A stretch of DNA of 38,816 nucleotides from Weissella muntiaci (lineage in GTDB: Bacteria; Bacillota; Bacilli; Lactobacillales; Lactobacillaceae): positions 1-38,816 of the forward strand of contig NZ_SDGZ01000018.1 in the NCBI RefSeq assembly GCF_008107635.1, written 5' to 3'. Of this stretch, positions 36,283 to 38,433 are shown in pieces; the stretch's first letter is position 1; each line of letters starts with the position of its first letter. A model generated the notes under the pieces. It was not told where the DNA came from, did not search any database, and saw only the letters and a program-made list of their open reading frames with translations. The position numbers and the translations under genes were made by a program.

Positions 36283-38433
36283 ATGGCTGATCAATCAATG
36301 ATGTCATTAAATGATCAAATGCTTATTCGTCGTGAAAAAATGACGGAATTGAGAGAAGCAGGGATTGATCCTTTTGGACATCGCTTTGAGCGTTCACATA
36401 CAGCAGCGCAATTACACGAATTATTTGATGGTGATACAACTGAAGAACTTGAGTCTGCAAATAATGTGGTTACGATTGCCGGTCGTATGATGACAAAGCG
36501 CCGTTCTGGGAAGTTGACTTTTGCTGATATCAAAGATCGTTCAGGACGAATTCAGATCTTCGTTCAAAAGCCAGTTATTGGTGAAGAAGCTTATGAGTGG
36601 CTGAAAAAGTCTGATCTGGGTGACATTATGGGCATTACCGGAGTGGTCATGAAGACCAAGGCTGGCGAGCTTTCAGTTAACGTTACTGAGATCACACATT
36701 TGTCTAAGGCTTTGCGTCCGCTTCCTGATAAGTATCATGGATTAACAGATGTTGAAACACGTTATCGTCAGCGGTATCTTGATTTGATCGCTAATCCGGA
36801 TTCAATGGATCGGTTCATGAAGCGATCAAAGATTATCTCGGCTATTCGTTCATATATGGATGGAGAAGGCTTTATTGAAGTTGAGACGCCAATCTTGATG
36901 ACCGCCGCTGGTGGAGCAACCGCGCGACCATTCGTGACGCATCATAATGCTCTCGATGTAGATATGTACATGCGAATTGCCACTGAGTTGCCACTGAAAA
37001 GGCTGATTGTCGGTGGTATGGAGCGTGTTTATGAAATTGGTCGAATTTTCCGGAATGAGGGAATGGACCCAAAGCATAATCCAGAGTTTACTACCATGGA
37101 AAGCTATGCCGCTTATTTTGACTTCAAAGATGTCATGGAAGAGACCGAGAATATTTTTAAGGCGGCTGCACGAGCTGTGACACCTGAAATGAAGGTAGTT
37201 TATCAAGGACATGAAATTGATCTTGCTAAGCCATTTGCGCAAAAGCATATGTTGGATTTGATCAAAGAAGTAACGGGAGTTGACTTTTGGAATCCAATGA
37301 CCTTGGACGAAGCACGTAAAATTGCTGAGGAAAAGGGCGTTAAGGTTGAATCTTATTGGGAAGTTGGACATATCATCGCTGAGTTCTTTGACGAATTCGT
37401 TGAAGAGACGTTGATTCAACCAACATTCGTTTATGGTTATCCAGTTGAAGTGTCACCTTTGGCCAAGAAGAATGCTGAAGACGCTCGTTTTACTGATCGC
37501 TTTGAGTTATATATTGTTGGTGGTGAATATGCTAATGCCTTTACTGAATTGAATGATCCTATTGACCAACGTCAACGGTTTGAAGCCCAAGCTGCTGAAA
37601 AAGCCGCTGGAAATGATGAGGCTGAAGGGATTGACGAAGATTATATTGAGGCCCTGGAATATGGAATGGCACCTACGGGTGGTCTTGGTGTTGGAATTGA
37701 TCGACTAGTAATGCTGTTGACAGATACTGATACAATTCGTGACGTGTTGCTCTTCCCAACAATGAAGCAAAATGGTGCTAAGCCAGCCAATGTCGCTTCA
37801 AAGCAAGTTAAGGACGCGCCTGTTGAAGTGGTAGCGGATCAGCTTGATGAGCCAATGCCAGCGAAGAAATTATCGCGGGATGAAGCATGGGAAATTTTGA
37901 CACAGTATGTGGATGATCCATCCTTACTAGCACATTCGCAAATTGTTGAAGCAATTATGCGTTATTATGCCCGTCAAAACGGAGCTGATGAGGATGTTTG
38001 GGGCGTAACTGGATTGCTTCACGATATGGACTGGCAAAAGTGGGAGACTGAACATACCTTTAAGGCAACCGAGATCTTACGTGATCGCGGTGTTGACGAA
38101 GTGTACATTCATGCAATTCAGAGCCACGCATACCATTTTGAAACAGAGGTTGAGCCTGTTACTTTGATGGAAAAGACGCTTTATGCAATGGATGAGCTTA
38201 GTGGACTAATTTATGCGGATGTACAAATTCGTCCTTCGCATAGTATTTTGGACGTCAAGGTTAAGTCGATTAATAAGAAGTTCCGTCAAGCATCATTTGC
38301 TCGCGGTATTGACCGTAATGCAATTAACGAAGGTTTGGCAATGTTGAACATGGAGCTGAATACAGCAATCGAAGGTTGCATCAACGCAATGAAGGAAAAC
38401 GTTGATGAATTGGGCCTTCGTGGTGATTTGTAA
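36283..38433 (+). CDS. lysS: Lysyl-tRNA synthetase fused to a C-terminal HD-type phosphohydrolase domain
   Basis: The product is 716 residues; a normal bacterial class II LysRS is about 490-505. Residues 1-500 are a complete LysRS: an OB-fold anticodon domain ([26 protein letters not shown] region), motif 1 around [11 protein letters not shown], motif 2 around [21 protein letters not shown], and motif 3 [15 protein letters not shown]. After a ~25-residue acidic/Pro linker, residues from about 527 form an HD domain: H551 in LAHSQ, H580-D581 in LLHDMDW, H610/H615/H618, and D637 in AMDELSGLI, followed by [18 protein letters not shown]. This resembles stand-alone HDIG hydrolases of ~190 residues. 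The frame is continuous; an internal ATG (M, about residue 524) has no good ribosome binding site. The substrate of the HD domain is unknown. GAGG precedes ATG 36283. Confidence 0.94.

Follow-up and report, generated by a model that had tools for sequence, protein, structure and literature searches.

An HD hydrolase-like domain joined in frame to the lysyl-tRNA synthetase of Weissella muntiaci

Introduction

Domains appended to aminoacyl-tRNA synthetases are already known. The bacterial lysyl-tRNA synthetase (LysRS, LysS; TIGR00499) is present complete in codons 1–494 of the gene described here, which adds a linker and an HD domain past the normal LysRS end. Excerpts of the literature on the HD domain of the glycyl-tRNA synthetase (GlyRS) beta subunit describe it as devoid of the His-Asp doublet (PMC8464048) and yet, without this catalytic doublet, able to bind tRNA (PMC8464048, PMC9908026). 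It sits on a separate tRNA-binding subunit, whereas in LysRS-HD the two parts are joined in one frame. In the CCA-adding enzyme, as presented in an excerpt of PMC10673834, a C-terminal HD hydrolase is attached to an enzyme that acts on tRNA; there the partner is a nucleotidyltransferase and here it is a synthetase, the two being likened by description. A 2',3'-cyclic phosphodiesterase activity is a mark of the HD domains of CCA-adding enzymes. Excerpts of PMC8177086 give the ligand set H...HD...H...H...D as diagnostic of a two-metal site, an Arg three residues before the first His as typical of HD phosphohydrolases, and a double histidine as a trait of HD phosphodiesterases. LysRS is named as a producer of diadenosine tetraphosphate (Ap4A), and YqeK as an HD-family Ap4A hydrolase, in an excerpt of PMC10148737.

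An earlier note on this DNA had asked whether the fusion was already described. Judged by the listings of one open-licence library, no earlier account of LysRS bearing an HD hydrolase was found. In PMC5370406 the name Weissella occurs only within a reference that has no bearing on the fusion, and PMC8464048 concerns GlyRS.

The Fused Gene

The window, that is the whole stretch of 38,816 bp analysed here, contains on its + strand an open reading frame at positions 36283–38433, starting with ATG and running for 716 codons with no internal stop. The earlier note had described it as one uninterrupted LysRS-HD frame, and the ORF reading, Pfam, NCBIfam and a second species all agree with that description. 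Pfam placed tRNA_anti-codon at residues 63–139, tRNA-synt_2 at 157–494 and HD at 549–640. The LysRS half scored well over the curated cut-off of NCBIfam model lysS_bact TIGR00499 (687.3 bits against 427.6, residues 9–496). The HD part passed both the cut-off of 22 for PF01966 (score 32.3) and the curated cut-off of 27.6 for HDIG TIGR00277 (31.6 bits with the full protein, 34.0 bits with the HD domain alone). The features are as follows:

36269–36272, + strand: likely ribosome-binding site GAGG, 10 bases 5' of the ATG, read by eye
36283–37764, + strand: LysRS part, codons 1–494, with the OB anticodon-binding domain and class II core, ending FPTMK (TIGR00499, Pfam)
37765–37863, + strand: linker, codons 495–527 (33 residues), Ala/Val/Lys/Pro-rich, variable
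37864–38430, + strand: HD domain, codons 528–716 (189 residues), PF01966 and TIGR00277, compact helical domain in the AlphaFold2 model
37933–37935, + strand: H551, predicted metal ligand, His in 85/86 relatives with 1 gap
38020–38025, + strand: H580-D581, HD doublet, each in 86/86 relatives
38053–38055, + strand: H591, predicted second-metal ligand, 86/86 relatives
38125–38127, + strand: H615, predicted second-metal ligand, 86/86 relatives
38191–38193, + strand: D637, last HD ligand, 86/86 relatives
38230–38316, + strand: R650-R678, proline/serine loop and basic helix (K661, K665, K666, R668, R678), candidate phosphate- or RNA-binding patch by inferred role
38439–38477, + strand: terminator-like hairpin with a 17-pair stem, directly 3' of the fusion stop codon

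The end of LysRS, which the earlier note had put near residue 500, lies at residue 494, and is followed by the linker and by an HD domain of 189 residues. The hairpin at 38439–38477 was the sole + strand terminator call within 35100–38816; as there were 3 calls on both strands against 2.6 expected by chance, it is its stem and position that recommend it. The Rfam search found no RNA regulator 5' of lysS, the window giving only a 5S rRNA and a tRNA. These two, the tRNA being a tRNA-Gly, lie at the window start (158–349). Tandem gene pairs were seen elsewhere in the window, encoding CNNM/CBS membrane proteins and LytR-CpsA-Psr proteins (9108–11885 and 14108–16851).

Occurrence and Age of the Fusion

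The same LysRS-HD fusion, with 713 aa, was found in W. oryzae SG25 (L012; contig NZ_DF820498.1), and the source genome is a Weissella near W. oryzae. By sequence search, 2 of 28 Weissella genomes had the HD domain. The search for LysRS gave a single match in each of 27 of the 28, the lone miss being a 66% complete genome (G306), and the fused gene was the sole lysS found in each of the two fusion genomes. In this LysRS search the fused open frames measured 729 and 727 aa, and the remaining 25 Weissella LysRS found were unfused and stopped at residue 493 or 494, as read in two passes that each lacked one locus, L046 or L025, covered by the other. The fused pair came together with a support of 100/99 in a LysRS tree built from 26 Weissella (all but L025) and G017, 27 rows in all.

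In the Lactobacillaceae sample the HD domain was present in 3 of 301 genomes. The third, G017, has a stand-alone 190-aa HD gene (60% HD identity) and an unfused lysS; by reading, rnhB and dprA lie on either side of the HD gene. The three HD sequences grouped as a single clade (100/99) in a tree of 88 rows, for which the bootstrap was not yet fully settled. The HD domain appears to have been acquired once within the Lactobacillaceae and then fused in the W. oryzae branch.

Between W. muntiaci and W. oryzae the identity was 92.3% in the LysRS part, 85.7% in the HD part and 41.4% in the linker (29 aligned codons). Two indels were observed, one of four codons in the linker and one of a single codon in the HD part, both in frame. 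Synonymous differences (pS) were near saturation (0.705 for LysRS, 0.783 for HD), with pN of 0.055 and 0.092, respectively. The dN/dS ratio of the LysRS part was 0.027; it is given for LysRS only, the dS of the HD part being beyond correction. The GC content was level across the two parts. Near-saturated synonymous sites, 86% identity in the HD part and in-frame indels indicate, as far as sequence comparison goes, that the fusion is old and is kept by selection in both halves, and is not the product of a lost stop codon. The probability that the 222 codons beyond the usual LysRS end are open by chance was about 2e-6 (window base composition, bases taken as independent). The lost-stop alternative considered in the earlier note thus gives way before the shared W. 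oryzae fusion, the in-frame indels and this low chance.

The linker also bears on the number of chains made. Linker proteolysis or internal initiation could yield two chains, the fusion then being only genetic, and the variable linker with its few bulky residues would suit such a process, as would in-frame start codons: ATG525 in W. muntiaci, and ATG494 (M494, the LysRS end) and TTG539 (L539, in the HD domain), which are common to W. oryzae. However, ATG525 has no W. oryzae counterpart, no start codon within the linker is common to both species, no ribosome-binding site was seen by sequence reading before ATG494, ATG525 or TTG539, and the indels preserve the frame. We consider two chains very improbable. 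The fusion is probably made as one 81-kDa protein, in which a two-metal phosphoester hydrolase, itself active, would be flexibly tethered to a normal LysRS.

The HD Family

The HD part matched a family of stand-alone proteins of about 190 aa over all of its 189 residues, so the resemblance to stand-alone HDIG proteins seen in the earlier note is one of family membership. The order sample held the family in 1 of 395 genomes, the class sample in 34 of 398 and the phylum sample in 318 of 398 (all with E ≤ 1e-25), the three samples overlapping and the phylum count possibly including a second subfamily. The named members, together with the low count in Weissella's own class, suggest that the family is mainly clostridial. 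No further LysRS-HD fusion was seen among the matches listed, the frames (165–310 aa in the phylum sample, 105–510 aa in the class sample) being too short; the two longest other frames, of 510 and 473 aa in the class sample, had only the HD domain by Pfam. On the question of taxonomic spread raised in the earlier note, the fusion thus occurs in 2 of 28 Weissella genomes and the family is otherwise stand-alone among the matches listed. Other phyla were sampled through few loci, and additional fusions may exist elsewhere. The phage records gave 58 matches to the query, none covering 80% of it, and the five best matched the LysRS half only. As to a defence role, PADLOC gave no match.

Named stand-alone members were annotated only as HDIG, HD or "hydrolase", and L050 had no annotation. 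Since the family is this common and, where annotated, named in such general terms only, its fusion to an enzyme of known role provides the first functional lead for an HD family found across hundreds of species.

The six-residue signature H551/H580-D581/H591/H615/D637 was essentially invariant among 86 relatives, and all six ligands are present in both fused species, in keeping with the earlier note, which had named H551, H580-D581 and D637 as an HD signature and held the catalytic residues to be intact. Of the extra histidines that it proposed, H615 proved conserved throughout, H610 (33/86) and H618 (5/86) did not, and H591 is invariant instead. D583, F672, A673 and R678 were found in 86/86 relatives. 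In the basic helix, K665 was conserved in 84/86 and K666 in 83/86, and position 668 was Lys in 81/86. The domain is acidic overall, with a pI of 4.9.

The fused copies share family and ligands with the stand-alone proteins and differ from them close to the active site. P588 (38044–38046), present in 86/86 relatives, is replaced by Glu in W. muntiaci and by Lys in W. oryzae. The Lys or Arg preceding H551, found at position 550 in 64/86 relatives, is absent from both fused proteins. Residue 592 (38056–38058), after H591, is Thr in both; it is Cys in 57/86 and Thr in 2/86 relatives. Because P588 and the basic residue before H551 were lost in the fused pair, the specificity of their HD domain may have shifted.

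An AlphaFold2 model of the HD domain was obtained from an 11-row alignment (mean pLDDT 94.7, pTM 0.91); a model from the single HD sequence (pLDDT 40) was discarded. In the fold search, two matches tied as closest, the HD domain of GlyRS beta, which binds tRNA, and the c-di-AMP phosphodiesterase PgpH; the model lay near small-nucleotide hydrolases, with a lower fold score for YqeK. No solved structure in the PDB proved convincingly related by sequence search, and a profile search reached YqeK structures only at E ≥ 0.13. Among viral models, none matched the HD model at E ≤ 0.001. An oxygenase of the PhnZ/MIOX type was also considered. Such a reading would fit the six ligands and a missing Arg (see below), yet we hold it to be unlikely because most carriers of the family are presumably anaerobes.

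Comparison with Known HD Domains

The likeness to the GlyRS beta HD domain is one of fold over the whole domain. The profile comparison by hhalign gave a probability of 4.6% for the HD family against 16 Weissella GlyRS and of at most 15%, in a different register, against 35 GlyRS; the comparisons with GlyRS beta, YqeK and LysRS were all insignificant. A by-eye ungapped register to the E. coli GlyRS came second of 654 windows in each of two segments, with z 3.4 and 3.7; as windows of unrelated LysRS attained 3.6 and 3.5, this register is no better. For the third segment, which contains the basic helix, the expected GlyRS register was absent from the top three windows. GlyRS residues P471, G473, D476, R481 and R482, located at the acceptor stem, are found in 35/35 GlyRS. 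By reading, the HD part has a PSxS loop and a Lys-rich helix at the corresponding place; on this reading the motif differs, and the GlyRS loop motif entering the acceptor stem is not reproduced.

This fold match raises the possibility that the HD domain is a non-catalytic helper that only binds tRNA-Lys or another partner, as the GlyRS beta domain does without its doublet. That domain is the top match, tied with PgpH. The fused HD domain, on the other hand, has kept all six metal ligands in both species and is under purifying selection, and a helper of this kind seems improbable.

The double histidine of PgpH and the HD-GYP proteins was not found, residue 616 being Ala here. Among the relatives, H615 is followed by Gly or Ala in 77/86 and by His in at most 1.

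The six-ligand set of the HD part is the same as that of the Ap4A hydrolase YqeK. The earlier note had suggested that the fusion might couple synthesis and breakdown of Ap4A or another nucleotide, an interpretation that is partly supported. On an Ap4A reading, LysRS would make Ap4A (or Np4-cap RNA) and the HD domain would cleave it. LysRS is indeed a known producer, YqeK belongs among the HD enzymes, and the YqeK core was the clear best ungapped window (z 6.1). Against this, yqeK is present in 28/28 Weissella genomes, the fusion genome having its own copy elsewhere, and TIGR00488 (YqeK), matched by the genome's own YqeK with 144.5 bits, had no match to the HD part at E ≤ 1 in NCBIfam. The typical Arg, at position 548, is found in 0/86 relatives (Leu in the fusion and in 72/86, His in 10, Gln in 2, Val in 1, gap in 1). 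The spacing D581-H591 is 10 residues against 32 (D63-H95) in the Weissella YqeK, and the fold score is lower. An Ap4A link is weakened by the universal yqeK, the absent Arg and the failed family match, and although possible it appears improbable, if slightly less so than the helper. In one unfused Weissella, the yqeK match was spread over two frames of 125 and 113 aa (G302:C1:1309764-1310275), possibly a broken gene or a sequencing error.

A Possible Role at the tRNA Acceptor End

We tentatively propose that the fusion carries a tethered phosphoester hydrolase acting at the tRNA 3' end for LysRS. In this model, the tRNA acceptor arm would be held by the conserved basic helix at the C-terminus. 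The two-metal centre would cleave a phosphoester at the tRNA 3' end or close to it, such as the 2',3'-cyclic or 3' phosphate that damage leaves behind. LysRS would then not be stalled by a tRNA that cannot be charged. A phosphoester at the acceptor end is preferred in view of the partner enzyme, a fold resembling that of GlyRS, the conservation of the basic helix and the CCA-adding enzyme as a precedent. Taken singly, the step that has LysRS deliver the hydrolase to the acceptor end is doubtful: PgpH is an equal fold match, there is no significant profile kinship with GlyRS beta, and the overall acidity of the HD domain also counts against it. A wider proposal would have an active two-metal hydrolase, built into LysRS, inspect the tRNA 3' end and repair or trim it before charging, the inactive HD domain of GlyRS beta being a fossil of the same arrangement; this seems to us unlikely. 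Should tRNA ends or a product of LysRS prove to be the target of the HD domain, a single chain would tie charging to repair or signalling, and the HD cavity of GlyRS beta, so far unexplained, would become testable from a new side.

Neighbours of the Stand-Alone Genes

Gene neighbours were surveyed in 55 loci, each from a different family among the phylum-sample matches listed; three further families were dropped, f54 for a contig edge and f37 and f146 for a stop inside. A motif filter located the HD gene in 34 of the 55 loci (L121 being a spurious frame), and the remaining 21 were excluded. In the 68 adjacent frames, a scan for four patterns picked up gltX in two families, which have one arrangement in common, and efp and mnmA in a single case each. 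No conserved neighbour of the stand-alone HD gene, and no excess over chance, was seen in these frames with these patterns.

With no frame of LysRS-fusion length among the listed relatives and no conserved neighbours seen, the family may have a role of its own that is unconnected with tRNA. It is possible that a small-nucleotide hydrolase was tethered to LysRS by accident, its substrate being unrelated to lysine or tRNA and the fusion neutral, with both parts useful. The family is widespread and stand-alone, PgpH shares first place among the fold matches with small-nucleotide hydrolases close by, and the linker is long and variable, all of which would fit. An accident leaves the choice of LysRS as partner unexplained, however, and does not sit easily with the alterations at P588 and position 550 near the active site of the fused pair. 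We regard an unrelated small-nucleotide substrate as about as likely as a phosphoester at the tRNA acceptor end, and hold both only tentatively.

By reading, the HD gene lies directly after or overlaps gltX in five genomes of families f50 and f102 (L075, L077, L081, L082, L083); L091 and L093 repeat two of these loci. This is a second site at which the HD family neighbours a synthetase gene, and it probably represents one ancestral arrangement. By-eye reading further placed the HD gene after efp in one family (L089) and before mnmA, a tRNA thiolation gene, in another (L097).
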